A DNA stretch of 64,000 bases from Bacteriovorax sp. BAL6_X (GTDB taxonomy: Bacteria > Bdellovibrionota > Bacteriovoracia > Bacteriovoracales > Bacteriovoracaceae). The notes under the pieces are model-generated. The model searched no databases, was not told the DNA's origin, and saw nothing but the letters and a program-made list of their open reading frames with translations. This document shows positions 36,741 through 46,806 of the stretch, piece after piece. The stretch is from the NCBI RefSeq assembly GCF_000443995.1, contig NZ_AUMC01000008.1:1-64000 (forward strand), read 5' to 3'. Each line of letters starts with the position of its first letter. The stretch's first letter is position 1. Made by a program: the position numbers and the translations under genes.

Positions 36741-39700
36741 CTATAAAATTTCGTTTAACAATTCTTCACAACTATTAGTTCGAACAAATTCACCTGGGAG
36801 CTCTCGAGCTGGAACAATCTCTTGTCTCATCTCTTGAGCAGTCAGAGCTGCGCGGATACGGTGATCATTATTCATCGTATTTAACTCATCTGCAGGCCCT
36901 GGTGTCCATTCTCTTCCAGTTGAATTAAGTGCATTCTCAGCACTTCTTGCTGCAACGGCCTTTCCCCAACCTGATTGATTTGGATGAATGGCCATTTTTT
37001 CATCAATACTTCTAAAGAACACTTTTTGAGACTCTAGTTGTGAGATTGATAAACCTTCCATTGTAGCAGTACGGAATTGATTTATATCTAACCCTAGGTC
37101 ATCACATAACTTCTTCAGATCATCTTCTGCCATTTGTGGCTTTTTCACATAATCAACGTGCGTAGTCTTATCAACTTCACCTGTTAACTCTTCAGTACTA
37201 TTTAGCGCCTTATCAAGCATTGCTCTTACTAACTGAATCTGCATTGCTGATTCAGCTGCATCACGTGGAGCATTGAACATTCTAAATTCGGCCTTTCTAA
37301 TTTTAGGATCAACTCTAAATGTTCTTCTCCAGTCAACAGTTGGATTTGAAATATCAAAGTCATCTGTAACAAATTCTTCAGGAATAACATCCTGGAAATA
37401 AGCTGAAACATCAAGCTGGATATAACGAGTCTTACGTCCAAAACGAGTGTTAAAATACCTTTCATTATAAAGAAGCTTCTTAAGTTCTTCCTCAGTCCCA
37501 TTAAAATCTTTCAGTGCTTTTCTTAATGTTTCACTGACTTCAACAGGCTCAGATGTGTGGGTACGATTAATATGTTGGAACATTAATGAAATGATTCCTC
37601 TATGCTCATGAAAGATTGTTAAGAATCTTGCAAGTGCTTTAGGATTACCATCAAATGCAGCAAGGTCAATATTTACGTGTCCACCGCCGGCCATTAGAGA
37701 AGGTAGTACATTATTCTTCTCAAAAGCTCTATATACTGAAGAAACTTCTTCAATTGTAGGCGTAAACTTTGGAGTAATTAGCTCTATTGTTCCCCCACGC
37801 GGAGAATCAGCAATGATCTCACCAGATGGAGTATAAGAGCGTCCAATTCCATCCCACTCAACTTGCCACTTACGCCCTTTATTGTCACGGATTGCATAGG
37901 CAACATCAAGTCCGTGCCCGTGCCCGTCAACTTCTAACTTAACAGGAGCCTCTCCTTCTTCACCACCTATTTCATTATAAAGATCTTGAGCAACTCGTTT
38001 AATGATTGCTTCACGCTCTTCAGATGATAGGTCAATAATAGTCTGCACCCAAGCACGCTTGCCATCTTCTAGACGCTCAGGAGATGTAATCGACTTAAGC
38101 CTTAAAGGAAATTTACCAGAGTACTCGATACCAAGATCGATTTGATTAACATCAACCGGGTTTGCGACTCTATTAGGAGCATTAACATTGGCCTTAAAAT
38201 CCATTGTAAGCTCATTATAATCCATCTTCTTAGGACGCATATAAGCTTCAAGATCATCAATTAGTTTTGATGCTGAAACCCATGTACGATTCATTTCACG
38301 AATTTCTTTCTTTAACTGCTCTTGAGACATATTCGGATCAAGAAGAGCAACTTTTTGCGTATAATCTTTAACAAGATTTTTAATGATCTCTCTTTTTGTA
38401 TCACCAATAAAAGCAACTTCAGGTTCAGTCCATCCCCAGAACATCACACGGTAGTCGGCCTTAATTCCGGCCTTTTGCATATTATCGAGTGCTTGGTTAA
38501 CAACATCGATCTCAATACCAAAGCGCGATGCAATACTTTCAGAGTTTCTAAACTCAGCACTATTTAAGTTATAGTCAGAAATACTTGCAATTCCACTAAA
38601 GTCATTGGCCCCAATACGAGCAGCTAGAGTAGTTTGATAGAATCTAGCTGGTGCAAGGTTTTTCGTACCTGCCCTAAACTCAATCCCTAAACCACCAGTG
38701 CTCTGCACCCATGGTTTCCATTGATCATCTGGTCTAATTACCCCACGTCCACCGTGGTAGAGATTAGTAAGGTTTGATTCCGGCTGTACACCTTTATAAT
38801 TTGCAAACTCGATTCCAGAGTTTCCTTTAATACCATTTAAAACAATATAAGATTGTATTGCACGGTAAAACTCAGAAAGCTTTCCTTCATCAAGATCAGG
38901 ATGTTTTCTAAAAACAATTCTTTGGTGACCAGGCGCCTGGAATAATTGAACCTTATTCTTGCCAGTTAAAGGATCACGCACGACTTGAGAAAGTGACTCT
39001 CTAAACCATGCAACCATTTCTTCAAATTCACCATAAGTGTCTTGGGCCTTGAAGTTAATCTCCCAACCGCCATTACCACCACCGTGACCATGGGCATCTG
39101 TTAGGAATCTTTCGGCCTTACCAAAGTTAGGCTTCCACTCACGGTAGTCTTGCTTGTTACCAAGAAATTTATGTGGTTTGCTATACCACCCTCCGTTTAC
39201 AGGCTTAACAATCTTTGGAAGTCCAGGAAGGTTTCCAGTAAAAAACTTACGCCTAACAGTCGGCTTAATGAAAGTCATTGCACGATCTTCCATTTGCTCA
39301 AAAAGATTATAGAAAACTTTTTCTAAAGTAGCTAAATCAGCTGTTTTAACATCAGTGGCCTTAAGTTCTGTAAGATCAATAACCTTAGGGTTACCTTCAG
39401 CGTCCACAACATCTCTAGCTAGATCAATTTTCTTACCAGTTGTGACGTCTCTATAAGTACGATAACCATTGGAGTCCTTTGCATAATTTTCTAAAAAATC
39501 ACGAAAGAACAATTCTTTATTATCATCAGAGAGTGTATCAATATTCTTCTTAATGATGGCCGTTGATGGCGACATAACACGTGTAAGAAGAGAAGAAGAA
39601 GCTTCTTTTTCCGCACCGTATGTAACACCTCCAAGCATTCCTGGTAGAGTTTGATCATCTACAAGAAGTGCCTTCGCACTATAAGAAGCTCCTGAATACT

Positions 39701-39869
39701 GAAGATCGGCCCAGGCCTCATAGGCCGTTTTAAAATTTCCATCTGAAGATGGGTTTCGATAATCGCCATGCTTTAATTGAGAAACCCCAAAGAATGCAGC
39801 AGTCCCAATTGCAACAGTTCCAAGAACTGGCAAATAAAGATCTTTAAATTTTTTATTAGTATCACTCAT
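36741..39869 (-). CDS. Very large membrane-anchored protein with two amidoligase-like halves
   Basis: A 1042-residue protein not matched to a named family. An N-terminal membrane helix (about 12-31) would anchor it with the bulk outside. The C-terminal half (about 640-890) has the pattern of glutamine-synthetase-fold amidoligases: KWQVEWDGIGRSY, GGTIELITPKFTPTIEEV, MAGGGHVNIDLAAF and KAEFRMFNAPRDA. The N-terminal half (about 250-420) repeats parts of it: DAHGHGGGNGGWEINF, GHQRIVF and GLGIEFRAGT. Both halves open with an HGHG motif (260-263 and 650-653). A peptide-bond-forming ligase role is an inference. ATP would be a problem outside the cytoplasm. It follows the 39904 gene by 34 bases. Confidence 0.6.
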   Translation of the reverse strand: MSDTNKKFKDLYLPVLGTVAIGTAAFFGVSQLKHGDYRNPSSDGNFKTAYEAWADLQYSGASYSAKALLVDDQTLPGMLGGVTYGAEKEASSSLLTRVMSPSTAIIKKNIDTLSDDNKELFFRDFLENYAKDSNGYRTYRDVTTGKKIDLARDVVDAEGNPKVIDLTELKATDVKTADLATLEKVFYNLFEQMEDRAMTFIKPTVRRKFFTGNLPGLPKIVKPVNGGWYSKPHKFLGNKQDYREWKPNFGKAERFLTDAHGHGGGNGGWEINFKAQDTYGEFEEMVAWFRESLSQVVRDPLTGKNKVQLFQAPGHQRIVFRKHPDLDEGKLSEFYRAIQSYIVLNGIKGNSGIEFANYKGVQPESNLTNLYHGGRGVIRPDDQWKPWVQSTGGLGIEFRAGTKNLAPARFYQTTLAARIGANDFSGIASISDYNLNSAEFRNSESIASRFGIEIDVVNQALDNMQKAGIKADYRVMFWGWTEPEVAFIGDTKREIIKNLVKDYTQKVALLDPNMSQEQLKKEIREMNRTWVSASKLIDDLEAYMRPKKMDYNELTMDFKANVNAPNRVANPVDVNQIDLGIEYSGKFPLRLKSITSPERLEDGKRAWVQTIIDLSSEEREAIIKRVAQDLYNEIGGEEGEAPVKLEVDGHGHGLDVAYAIRDNKGRKWQVEWDGIGRSYTPSGEIIADSPRGGTIELITPKFTPTIEEVSSVYRAFEKNNVLPSLMAGGGHVNIDLAAFDGNPKALARFLTIFHEHRGIISLMFQHINRTHTSEPVEVSETLRKALKDFNGTEEELKKLLYNERYFNTRFGRKTRYIQLDVSAYFQDVIPEEFVTDDFDISNPTVDWRRTFRVDPKIRKAEFRMFNAPRDAAESAMQIQLVRAMLDKALNSTEELTGEVDKTTHVDYVKKPQMAEDDLKKLCDDLGLDINQFRTATMEGLSISQLESQKVFFRSIDEKMAIHPNQSGWGKAVAARSAENALNSTGREWTPGPADELNTMNNDHRIRAALTAQEMRQEIVPARELPGEFVRTNSCEELLNEIL

Positions 39870-39903
39870 ACGCTATACCTTTATCTTTTATTACTTAAAT
39901 TAA

Positions 39904-40836
39904 TTATTTGAAAAAACACTTTTTAGCTTTTAACTCTTCAATACTATTAGCTGTCTCAGGAGTTTTATCGCTGATTTTATAAAGCTGCTTATAAAACTCA
40001 TCTTCTCTTTTAGAGGCAGGCTTCTTGGCCGCTTCATTAATTGCCTTTGCTAGTTTGGCAGCTCTTTGAGGAGAAAATTTACCGTCGATTATTTTCCAAA
40101 AAGTAGCTTTTGCTGTAGGGCCTGCAAAAGTCACATTACCAGCCTTATCAGAATTATACTTGGACACGGCCTCATAGAATTGCTTATATTCTTTCTTTGC
40201 ACCACGATCATTGAAGCTCATAAACAGAGCAAGTGTTTTACGATCACCAGAGTCTAGGTAGCGAGAAATGTCTTTCGCATTCCCCTTTCTACTCATTTTA
40301 CTAATATAGCGACTAATCGCTGTAGAACTTTTAGGAAGTCGAGAAACAAGTCTTTTTAAACTTGGATCAGCAATAACTGTAATATTTGACTTAAAGCCAA
40401 GGCTAGCTAATTGTTCAGATTTACAATAAGAACAATTAAGTAACTTACTTGAATCTTCCCCGTAAACAGAAGCAATATAAGCGAGGTCATTAACAATATC
40501 CTTGAATTCTTGTCCCGTTACTGTGTCGTGGTTCATTTTTAACGCCGCTTGGATACGACCAATCTTTGCTGCATCTTCTTTTGTTGCATCTACTTTGACT
40601 GCAGTAAGGCCATCACTTAGGCTTGCATGGCCATGTGAAAGTGAGGCAACACTATTGTGAATAGAGTCTTTTAAACTAGTAATAGAGCTACCAGAAACGC
40701 CTTCTTTTACAATTTTAGATTTGATAGAGACAGGCTTTAATAATAGCTCGCCAAAAGTAAAGATACTTGCATAAGTACTTCCAGAAATTGCTACAAACGC
40801 ATAAAGCGCAAGCATACTTCTTCCCATAAATTTCAT
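39904..40836 (-). CDS. Exported protein of unknown function, partner of the large amidoligase-like gene
   Basis: Unrecognised, 310 residues. I start it at the ATG at 40836 because GGAGAG lies just upstream and the product then opens with a normal signal peptide (MKFMGRSMLALYAFVAISGS, cut near TYA). A longer frame to 40911 would hide that peptide. A CxxC pair (NCSYCKSE) lies at about residue 135 and another Cys three residues from the end. The C-terminal half is Lys-rich and helical. It sits first in a two-gene unit with the large gene, which suggests a shared task in the envelope. Confidence 0.6.
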   Translation of the reverse strand: MKFMGRSMLALYAFVAISGSTYASIFTFGELLLKPVSIKSKIVKEGVSGSSITSLKDSIHNSVASLSHGHASLSDGLTAVKVDATKEDAAKIGRIQAALKMNHDTVTGQEFKDIVNDLAYIASVYGEDSSKLLNCSYCKSEQLASLGFKSNITVIADPSLKRLVSRLPKSSTAISRYISKMSRKGNAKDISRYLDSGDRKTLALFMSFNDRGAKKEYKQFYEAVSKYNSDKAGNVTFAGPTAKATFWKIIDGKFSPQRAAKLAKAINEAAKKPASKREDEFYKQLYKISDKTPETANSIEELKAKKCFFK

Positions 40837-42786: not shown

Positions 42787-45700
42787 ATGTATCGTTTTAT
42801 TGTTATTGTATTCATATTCATCAAAGTAAACTTTCAAGTCTACGCTGCAGACGAGCTATCGGCTTGCGTGTTAAAACGTGGGAATATTCAGGCCACAGCG
42901 CAAACAGCCAAACCGATTTGCAGTGCCACTATTTTAGACCGTAATACTATTATCTATGAACAAAGCTGTACGCGAGAAGCTAATCCTCGAGCTCTTCAAC
43001 TCACTAGTTATTTCGTTTCTTGTCATAACGACAGTGTTAGTTACAAAGTTCCAACAGCAAGTTTTAATCAAAGAGATTCAAAACATAAGAGCTTAAAACT
43101 TGATGTGCCTATTGCCTACTTTCCTACAAAACATCATACAAATGAAAAACTAACTAGTTGTACAATGAAATCAACAACTAGTACAACACAGTTAAGGGCG
43201 AGTCACTTGGCCAGTGATATTGAAAAACTTAGGCTTTCTAAAACGGCCAGTGCTGCACCTATTATCTGTAAGAATGAATCAAATACAAAAGAAGAGCTTC
43301 TCGCTGGTATTATTTCAAGTGATGGTAAATTTATACCAATAAAAAATTTACAAGAACAATATCAGCTTGAATCAGACTTTGAATCAACACTTGAAGATAC
43401 TACTTACAGTGAGGACTCCGCTATTGTGGTTTGTAATAATGCGTCTGAATGTATTACAAATCTTATTACACCCGCGATAGAGCTAAATGAACAATTAAAT
43501 GAAATTATCTCAAAATTAAATGGATATGAGAGAACATCAATTGCAACAGAAAGAGAACAGCTTACCAATGAATTTCGCGAGCTAGAAAAAGAATGTTACC
43601 GTAAGGCCCTCCAGGCAAAATTAAGTTATTCAAATATAGAAGAAGCAGACTTTGGCGACAAAACAATGGGAGCGATCGAAAGAGGGGCCATTGGCGTCTT
43701 TAATTTCTTTGGAAGTATAAACCCATTTGATAAAGAAGAGTTTCTCTACACTACCTTCAAGGATATTGGCGCAATTTCTCAAAACTTAAGTAATGCTAGA
43801 ATTAAAGAAATATTTGATGATATCAATGAACAAGATATCGGAAGTTTCGATAAGATTAGAAAACTTGCAAGTGCATATTCAAAAGAAGTCGTAAACCTCT
43901 TATTAGACGATATGAAGACATTCAAGAGTGGCCAAGAGAAACAGGCCTTTGTTGCCCCCTATCTTAAAGATCTTGATAAATGCTTAGAAAAAGCTGTACG
44001 TAAGGATCAAGTTATTGAATGTTCCAATATATTCACCAATAATATTTCTCTTTCAATAGGTGAAAAGGAATTGGAAAAACAAATAGGACTAAATTTCACA
44101 CCAGAAGATGGCCTACCAACTCTTAAGGCAAAATCAACTAGTGCATATATGAAGTGTGTAAATGAAAACTTCAATAAATTTGAAAAAATCATTGATACAA
44201 CTTCAGTTGTTAAAGGATGTGTTTATACAGGGATACTAGAAAGTTATCATCGCACACGTGCAGGACGTGTCAATGACGCAATAAAGGCATACACAGGAAA
44301 ATCTGAAAATAATGCCATTGTTGGCGACATCTTAAGAAAATCTAATAACTGTAGTTATGCTCCGATTGTAAATAGAAAAGGACAAACACCTCAAGAGTAT
44401 TTAGTCCTTGCTAAAATGAGTACCGAACAATTTACGAAAACTATTGGTGAATGTATTGATAGCTTAAAAGTAAGTGCTACTTACGATGTTGTAGAAATTG
44501 CAATTTTAACAAATCCAAAAATATCAGAGAGCTTATCACAAGATGAAAAGAATCTTTTAATTGAAGAGATTAAGACCAAGCATCTTCCGGCATGTATGAG
44601 CGCAAAGAAGACAACTGATGGAAATGAGTGTTCTGCTTTTATTACGGCCATGGCAACAGCACAAGCGGCCAAGTCAATACTTGCAATCGAGTTTGATAAA
44701 CAATTTGATACACTTGGAATAGATGAGTCAAAAAGAGCTCAACTTTCACAAAGAATCATTAGAGATTATGAGATTTGTGTTGAACATGCTAAACGAGAGA
44801 TTTACAGAGACCTTACAAAAGATGTAAATGAAAATCTTATTAATCAGTGTTTAACAGGAGCAATTACTTCCCTATCTGGCTCGATCTTAAAAGATAGTAT
44901 TTACAAGGCCACAAGTGATAAAGGAATTGCAGATAGCGTTGTTGAATCAGCAATATCTACACAAGAGCTTACACGCGTTCAAAATGGTATGAAGTCATGT
45001 CTTGAAAATGATTTAGCAAAGCATACTAAGTTAAACACTTATCAAGCAAATATGAATGAGACGATCTCATCGTGTACATTTAAAACCCAAAGAAGTGTTA
45101 TTGGCCTAATTGCAAAAGAGATGGCCCAAGGACAAGTAAAAGATTTCAACTTGCCAGAAACTGAAATTAGCTCACTTAATCGTTTTATTGAAAACCATAT
45201 TAATAATAGTGGCCCAGAAAATCTTGACAGTAATGTTGATACCCTAACACCGCTTCTAATTAAACGTGTCGCTCCAGGTGCGATTGACAAAACATTAGAG
45301 GACTTTAAATCTAAGTTCACAAAAGAACAATTTGAAGATGCTAAGAATAAGATCAGTACACAACTTAATTCATGTCTTGATAAAACCCTCAAAGAAAAAC
45401 AAAGTAATGATGAAGTCAATGCAACACAGGCAGCAACCGTCTGCATGTCTGTAACGGTAAAAGATGCATACCGCTCTCTTGCTCCAAAAATAATCGAAGA
45501 AACAATAGCACCTCTTTTTAATGGAGAGCCAAATAAAGTGAAATCACTTACTAATTCATCTTCAAGAGAATTGATGAAGTGTCTAGACTCTGTCAAAGAC
45601 GATGTAAGAGCACAGGATAAAGCTAAGGACTGTCTAAGTAGTCAGATTGGAAATATTGCAAAGACTATTGCAAAAACACTACTTACAGATCTTAATAAAT

Positions 45701-46806
45701 TTGCAAATCCAAATGGTACCTTAGAAGACTTCACGAGATCTCAAGCATACCGTCAATTTGAAAGATGTATTGATGGGCCAAATAGGCCAAGCCTTGAAGA
45801 GGCCACTGAGAATATGAATAATTGTGTTACCAAACTTGAGCAACAGGCTAAAGAAGAGGTTAAAGGCCGCTTTGTTCAAGTCTATGGCAATCAAAACCCA
45901 GACCAGCTTGGCAAGGTGATGGATATTCTTCTAACTATCCCAGCAAAGTCTCAGGAAACAGGATTCAAAGAAGAAGGATCTTCAGATGGAATGCCTAATG
46001 CCCAGCTTATTTCGACACTTGAGTTAGTAGGATCAACTCTAAAGTATTCATGCGAAAATAATACAGCAATCTGTGATCAAGCAATTCATAACACGACAAT
46101 TGCAATGCAAAGGCATAGTCTTGATAACCCACGCTCTACGACTGCACAGAATACACAGGCCCTTATGGAAAGTGAGATGTTAGAAAATCTTATCACTTCC
46201 CAATTAGGTATGAATCTAAACCAAGTCTTCAAAAAAGAGTTGGCCACGTATAATGGACCAGATAATCTTGTGTTAGAAAAAATAGATGACATTACAAATA
46301 ACCGTCTATTAACTGATATCATGAGAACTCGTGAAGGACGAGAGCTCAAAGAATACATTCTTAAGAAAGTTGAAGAAGGAGCCATAGATAATATTGCCGA
46401 AGATCCTAATCTTAGAAAGCTACTAGCAAATGCATTAACAAAAGATACTAGTGACGGATCATTTGGAGACCAACTCTCCTACGCTCTTGTTCAAACTGAA
46501 CTTAACCGAATGAAGAAACGCTCTCGAGGCTTACGAGGTTTCTTTAGAGAGTTTACAATCAATGCTGGAGATCTTTTTAATATCATCGATAAGAAAGATT
46601 TTAAGTGGTCTAAAATAACAAGAACAAGAACTGGTGTTCGTGCCCGCGAGTATATGATCAGAGAGATCATTGCACCAGCAATAGAAGGGCGTAACTTAGC
46701 GGCAGAAGCTGCATCGTCTAAGAAGCATAAGAATCAGCAAGAAGAAAGACTCGATCGATTTAAATCAATGTTAACAGATGCTCTAAAAGAGGCAAATAAG
46801 TTATAA
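42787..46806 (+). CDS. Giant exported protein of Cys-pair helical repeats with a degenerate protease-like head
   Basis: Unrecognised 1339-residue protein with a signal peptide (cut near VYA, residue 20). Residues about 25-190 resemble a trypsin-like fold that has lost its catalytic His: CSATILDRNTIIYEQSC sits where active proteases have an Ala-His-Cys. From about 270 to 1050 at least eight helical units each carry two Cys spaced about 12-30 residues, for example SCLENDLAKHTKLN...SC, KCLDSVKDD...DC and RCIDGPNRPS...NNC. Disulfide-closed helical hairpins in the periplasm or outside are likely. The last about 250 residues have few Cys and a basic tail. A terminator follows. Confidence 0.7.
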   Translation: MYRFIVIVFIFIKVNFQVYAADELSACVLKRGNIQATAQTAKPICSATILDRNTIIYEQSCTREANPRALQLTSYFVSCHNDSVSYKVPTASFNQRDSKHKSLKLDVPIAYFPTKHHTNEKLTSCTMKSTTSTTQLRASHLASDIEKLRLSKTASAAPIICKNESNTKEELLAGIISSDGKFIPIKNLQEQYQLESDFESTLEDTTYSEDSAIVVCNNASECITNLITPAIELNEQLNEIISKLNGYERTSIATEREQLTNEFRELEKECYRKALQAKLSYSNIEEADFGDKTMGAIERGAIGVFNFFGSINPFDKEEFLYTTFKDIGAISQNLSNARIKEIFDDINEQDIGSFDKIRKLASAYSKEVVNLLLDDMKTFKSGQEKQAFVAPYLKDLDKCLEKAVRKDQVIECSNIFTNNISLSIGEKELEKQIGLNFTPEDGLPTLKAKSTSAYMKCVNENFNKFEKIIDTTSVVKGCVYTGILESYHRTRAGRVNDAIKAYTGKSENNAIVGDILRKSNNCSYAPIVNRKGQTPQEYLVLAKMSTEQFTKTIGECIDSLKVSATYDVVEIAILTNPKISESLSQDEKNLLIEEIKTKHLPACMSAKKTTDGNECSAFITAMATAQAAKSILAIEFDKQFDTLGIDESKRAQLSQRIIRDYEICVEHAKREIYRDLTKDVNENLINQCLTGAITSLSGSILKDSIYKATSDKGIADSVVESAISTQELTRVQNGMKSCLENDLAKHTKLNTYQANMNETISSCTFKTQRSVIGLIAKEMAQGQVKDFNLPETEISSLNRFIENHINNSGPENLDSNVDTLTPLLIKRVAPGAIDKTLEDFKSKFTKEQFEDAKNKISTQLNSCLDKTLKEKQSNDEVNATQAATVCMSVTVKDAYRSLAPKIIEETIAPLFNGEPNKVKSLTNSSSRELMKCLDSVKDDVRAQDKAKDCLSSQIGNIAKTIAKTLLTDLNKFANPNGTLEDFTRSQAYRQFERCIDGPNRPSLEEATENMNNCVTKLEQQAKEEVKGRFVQVYGNQNPDQLGKVMDILLTIPAKSQETGFKEEGSSDGMPNAQLISTLELVGSTLKYSCENNTAICDQAIHNTTIAMQRHSLDNPRSTTAQNTQALMESEMLENLITSQLGMNLNQVFKKELATYNGPDNLVLEKIDDITNNRLLTDIMRTREGRELKEYILKKVEEGAIDNIAEDPNLRKLLANALTKDTSDGSFGDQLSYALVQTELNRMKKRSRGLRGFFREFTINAGDLFNIIDKKDFKWSKITRTRTGVRAREYMIREIIAPAIEGRNLAAEAASSKKHKNQQEERLDRFKSMLTDALKEANKL

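Follow-up and report, generated by a model that had tools for sequence, protein, structure and literature searches.

Amidoligases with a glutamine synthetase (GS)-like fold, including the Pfam family Amidoligase_2 (PF12224), were reportedly described by Iyer et al. in 2009. Enzymes of this type are normally cytoplasmic because of their need for ATP, which is not expected in a normal periplasm; ATP-dependent ligases are, more generally, not expected outside the cytoplasm. Residence in the cytosol, with a glutamine amidotransferase or another ligase encoded next door, is typical of Amidoligase_2 members, if not strictly defining. The genome of Bacteriovorax sp. BAL6_X (3.23 Mb) encodes one conventional cytosolic example, a protein of 322 aa (C10:531054) that scores 190 bits to PF12224 and adjoins a glutamine-amidotransferase-like (gamma-glutamyl-GABA-hydrolase-like) gene. 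The same pair of genes occurs on a Dinoroseobacter plasmid, while viral contigs contain no relative of this canonical amidoligase. The window analyzed here, meaning the whole stretch of 64,000 nucleotides from the start of contig NZ_AUMC01000008.1 of the same genome, encodes a pair of proteins that departs from the typical pattern, showing export signals and a helical partner instead of a cytosolic location and a glutamine amidotransferase or ligase neighbor.

An earlier note, made from the DNA alone, had proposed a two-gene unit of a 1042-residue membrane protein and a partner starting at position 40836, and both open reading frames are confirmed (Table 1); they share a strand and lie 34 bases apart. 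Defence and phage families were looked for, and none was found. Elsewhere in the window, positions 42787-46806 encode a 1339-aa exported Cys-rich protein, 3' of an N-acetylmuramoyl-L-alanine amidase gene, with no Pfam match above cut-off.

Table 1. Positions of the gene pair and of the parts of the large protein in the window.
Feature	Position	Strand	Basis
Gene for 1042-aa exported tandem amidoligase-like protein	36741..39869	-	ORF, homologs, AlphaFold model
N-terminal membrane segment, residues 12-34, with Lys residues ahead of it	39768..39836	-	sequence, family comparison
N half, residues 80-445: GAEKE 85-89, WE 269-270, GH 314-315, R379, EFR 397-399	38535..39632	-	conservation in 39 homologs, shuffle test, model strands
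C half, Amidoligase_2-like, residues 576-890: GIEYS 580-584, HGH 650-652, EWDG 671-674, IELITPK 695-701, GGGHVNID 728-735, R848, EFR 861-863	37200..38144	-	PF12224 match, 17 homologs, register with other amidoligases
Gene for the 310-aa partner (exported, helical; C135xxC138 and C307 invariant)	39904..40836	-	alignment of 17, structure model

The C half of the large protein belongs to Amidoligase_2. The Pfam profile search that the earlier note had proposed as a check scores residues 628-826 at 28.5 bits against PF12224, above the curated cut-off of 22 bits, and each of 17 homologs taken from a diverse alignment also matches the profile by itself. GGTIELITPKF and GGGHVNIDL, both read from the sequence in that note, are present in this half, where IELITP stands for E[IL]xSP, HVNID for HxHxD, and EFR for ExR of the family motifs. 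The domain starts at G580-I-E-Y-S584, ahead of HGHG at 650-653. Residues invariant or nearly so in 39 homologs include G580, E582, H650, H652, D673, E696, P700, H731, N733, D735, R848, E861 and R863, and the HGH is invariant across homologs. A profile comparison brings other exported amidoligases into line with the whole of the C half, each motif meeting its counterpart (GIEYS, IELITP, GGHVNID, EFRMFN), at a modest E-value of 0.017 from a single comparison. The motif GxExE, in turn, reads GxEx[S/T] in all homologs, its second Glu always lost. This alteration favors an alternative that we hold to be possible, on the unlikely side, in which GS-fold domains that have lost catalysis serve as an envelope scaffold or receptor for peptides; the normal lack of ATP in the periplasm and the HEAT-like matches of some long homologs (see below), which suggest a scaffold, point the same way.

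The N half bears on this alternative from the other side. A Pfam search of ten N halves gives no family match, and neither hhalign against other amidoligases nor a search of all retrieved ORFs with an N-half HMM produces a significant link. The case for calling the N half amidoligase-like is made from its invariant residues and from how strands and helices follow one another in the model. Residues invariant or nearly so in the 39 homologs include G85, E87, E89, W269, E270, G314, H315, R379, E397 and R399, and these few, read along the chain, give the amidoligase signature (G85xE87xE89, E270, H315, E397xR399), an order of GxExE-E-H-ExR that only 33 of 300,000 letter shuffles over the conserved columns reproduce. 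The domain starts at G85-A-E-K-E89, and of the PF12224 motifs it has an invariant GxEKE and otherwise just E270, H315 and EFR, in sequence. That every one of these ligand positions is kept invariant, although overall identity is 29-40%, argues against a form that merely binds, as do exported relatives with intact signatures, some with ATP-grasp matches. The earlier note had each half opening with HGHG and carrying an EFR segment. The EFR segments are where it placed them (397-399 and 861-863) and so are the HGHG motifs (260-263 and 650-653), but the equivalence of the latter fails: both domains begin earlier, and the N-half HGHG, lost or altered in most homologs, is no counterpart of that in the C half, which rules it out as a common start.

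A confident AlphaFold model of the large protein (mean pLDDT 84.8, pTM 0.86) places the N-half motifs on strands 82-90, 269-273, 315-320 and 394-398 and the C-half motifs on strands 579-586, 694-698, 732-735 and 859-862, with the helices between motif strands in the same order in both halves. The top PDB matches found by Foldseek are nearly all glutamine synthetases, with GmaS, 1tt4 (a predicted glutathione synthase) and PafA also present; match probability is at most 0.85 and the best E-value is a weak 0.03, for a match of the whole model that is not resolved per half. Folds unrelated to glutamine synthetase, the outcome set beforehand in the earlier note as speaking against its reading, are thus not what the whole-model comparison returned. 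We take the signature motifs to correspond to metal ligands of glutamine synthetase, by the general layout of that fold rather than by a computed superposition, and we infer a GS fold and metal binding for the N half as well. Aligned to each other by hhalign, the two halves reach an E-value of 0.002, a marginal, uncorrected value from a single comparison, in register with GxExE and the best of the pairs tried. The proposal of two amidoligase-like halves stands for the C half, by profile, and is weaker for the N half, with its missing Pfam match and marginal half-to-half similarity; a full tandem is likely, short of proof from sequence.

Export signals run through the whole family. By inspection, every homolog with an intact start bears an export or anchor signal, as a lipobox (e.g. 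LLYNC, LIASC, LITGC or LLPGC), a cleavable signal peptide, or an N-terminal membrane segment. The probable export proposed for the window protein is strengthened by these relatives, and its single N-terminal hydrophobic segment agrees with the membrane helix first read there. The window protein itself has lost the lipobox Cys and shows no clear cleavage site while keeping the membrane segment and the Lys residues before it. The loss leaves room for domains that stay cytoplasmic behind a segment acting merely as inner-membrane anchor, which we consider very improbable: the Lys residues fit the positive-inside rule for an outward-facing protein, the nearest relatives are predicted lipoproteins, the more distant ones have cleavable signal peptides, and the partner is exported. 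In the window protein (residues 38-43, window 39741-39758), as in several unrelated exported proteins, the membrane anchor is followed by a short motif, RxP[AS][SND]. As a sorting signal it is not convincing, with five occurrences against 0.6 expected in a set that includes the window protein, and two against 0.3, one of them probably chance, in a fresh set.

The partner is, as first described, an exported protein with a signal peptide and the sequence NCSYC (residues 134-138); an alignment of 17 adds that its CxxC and a C-terminal Cys are invariant. Its confident model is all-helical (pLDDT 86.5) and finds no match in the PDB below E = 1, adding a helical fold that has no solved counterpart. 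The co-occurrence of the two genes holds among close relatives: in all 21 genomes, from six genera, whose sequence covers the stretch upstream of the large gene, the partner is the gene immediately upstream (two further genomes reach a contig edge), and it adjoins the large gene at 16 named loci. It is missing beside the divergent members of the large family and beside a second copy in the BAL6_X genome, 43% identical to the window protein (G000:C3:797809-800763; L063:7633-10782). Standalone paralogs of the partner also occur, and examining them for a functional clue gave none. One of these (L064:7147-8094) faces, in convergent orientation, the gene for an exported protein of 1535 aa and no assigned family (L064:2538-7145), and similar neighbors may recur near others.

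The large protein is found in 58 of 325 Bdellovibrionota genomes and in 31 of 165 genera. About 40 homologs were collected, all in this phylum (Halobacteriovorax, Bacteriovorax and other Bdellovibrionota), and the 39 compared range down to 29% identity. Most Bdellovibrionaceae lack the protein, and for this reason it has no place as a core or general predation gene. The family was looked for on plasmids and not found, with no sign of plasmid spread. Several divergent homologs run to 1800-2130 aa through a long C-terminal extension (L085, L086, L091-L093, L095, L097, L098 and L106), and some of them show sub-threshold matches to HEAT repeats.

Taken together, the evidence would fit a two-gene envelope unit in which an anchored, exported, tandem GS-fold amidoligase-type protein and its helical partner carry out amide or isopeptide chemistry outside the predator cytoplasm, a reading to which we give about even chances. 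The large protein would cross the inner membrane and stay anchored there, as a predicted lipoprotein in many relatives. Its N half would be the more likely catalytic site, because the full ligand set (GxExE, E, H, ExR) is kept, and its C half would more likely be an altered site with a part in substrate binding or regulation, because one metal-ligand Glu has become Ser or Thr. The exported CxxC partner probably binds or stabilizes the large protein. The bonds handled would most likely be amide or isopeptide linkages that involve acidic side chains, as in stem peptides or gamma-glutamyl-type compounds; cross-linking of the wall, suggested at the outset, is one possibility. Against an enzyme stand the N half's lack of a significant sequence link, the Glu loss in the C half, the weak Foldseek E-values and a periplasm normally expected to lack ATP. 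For the ATP problem we see three ways out: nucleotide could be drawn, if needed, from the invaded prey cell, catalysis could have been lost in favor of binding, or nucleotide and phosphate could serve a hydrolysis like that of Dop. In the last case, which we think unlikely, the protein would cleave amide or isopeptide bonds in prey proteins or in the stem peptides of the wall, and nucleotide and phosphate would stay bound as a catalyst instead of being spent. The GS-fold depupylase Dop, which hydrolyzes amide bonds with a catalytic phosphate, is a precedent (PMC8599861), and PafA is among the fold matches; yet Dop still requires ATP, or ADP and phosphate, and no sequence relation to Dop is seen. 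Acting on wall peptides or on prey, extracytoplasmic amide-bond enzymes or binding proteins are what these proteins most likely are.

The large protein is not the lone oddity that it had first seemed. A survey of exported Amidoligase_2 proteins, covering Bdellovibrionota and a few plasmid records, shows that they recur in the phylum, with many other examples (L143, L145-L151, L256-L260, L264-L269, L272). The lipoproteins among them are about 390-1180 aa long and those with signal peptides 341-1078 aa, several of the latter having an intact GxExE right after the signal. Single-domain cases are L256, L257, L265-L269, L272 and L145-L151. Four exported proteins combine Amidoligase_2 with a match to R2K ATP-grasp, above cut-off in two (L143:4924-8451 and L260:4143-6602) and somewhat below it in the others (L258:3820-6216 and L264:2568-4847). 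Peptide ligation is the predicted activity of R2K enzymes, some of which belong to toxin systems (PMC4431377). That exported proteins show matches to two ligase folds would point to genuine extracytoplasmic chemistry of the ligase type. It may be, and we offer this tentatively as a doubtful extension, that a set of ATP-dependent ligases for peptides or amides is exported by Bdellovibrionota (GS-like amidoligases, with R2K ATP-grasp fusions among them) and acts outside the predator cell, drawing on ATP of the invaded prey to alter either proteins of the prey or the shared wall, the tandem pair being one family of the set. The pair raises a testable possibility, amide-bond chemistry performed by predators outside their own cells. 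Putative active-site residues are conserved in the family, export signals recur, and among the genomes searched it is confined to a predator-rich phylum; it lets one ask whether predators bring ligation chemistry into the prey compartment or have made an envelope binding protein out of a GS fold.

Compared with known systems, the C half is in register with the PF12224 profile (E[IL]xxP, HxNxD for HxHxD, ExR), whereas the large protein as a whole is exported, probably tandem and about 1000 aa long, has the second Glu of the C-half GxExE replaced, and has no glutamine-amidotransferase neighbor at its locus. The 322-aa amidoligase of BAL6_X shares its Pfam family but is a single domain without a signal peptide, with an intact GxExE and in a different operon. 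Glutamine synthetase, GmaS and PafA/Dop share the order of metal-ligand motifs, and the first two and PafA are among the best structural matches; unlike the large protein they are cytosolic, and they show no significant sequence similarity to it. Other exported Amidoligase_2 proteins of Bdellovibrionota likewise join a signal peptide or lipobox to an amidoligase domain, but each has a single such domain, and what extends beyond it varies, with matches to R2K ATP-grasp or HEAT in some. Export together with a probable tandem layout sets the large protein apart within an otherwise known superfamily.
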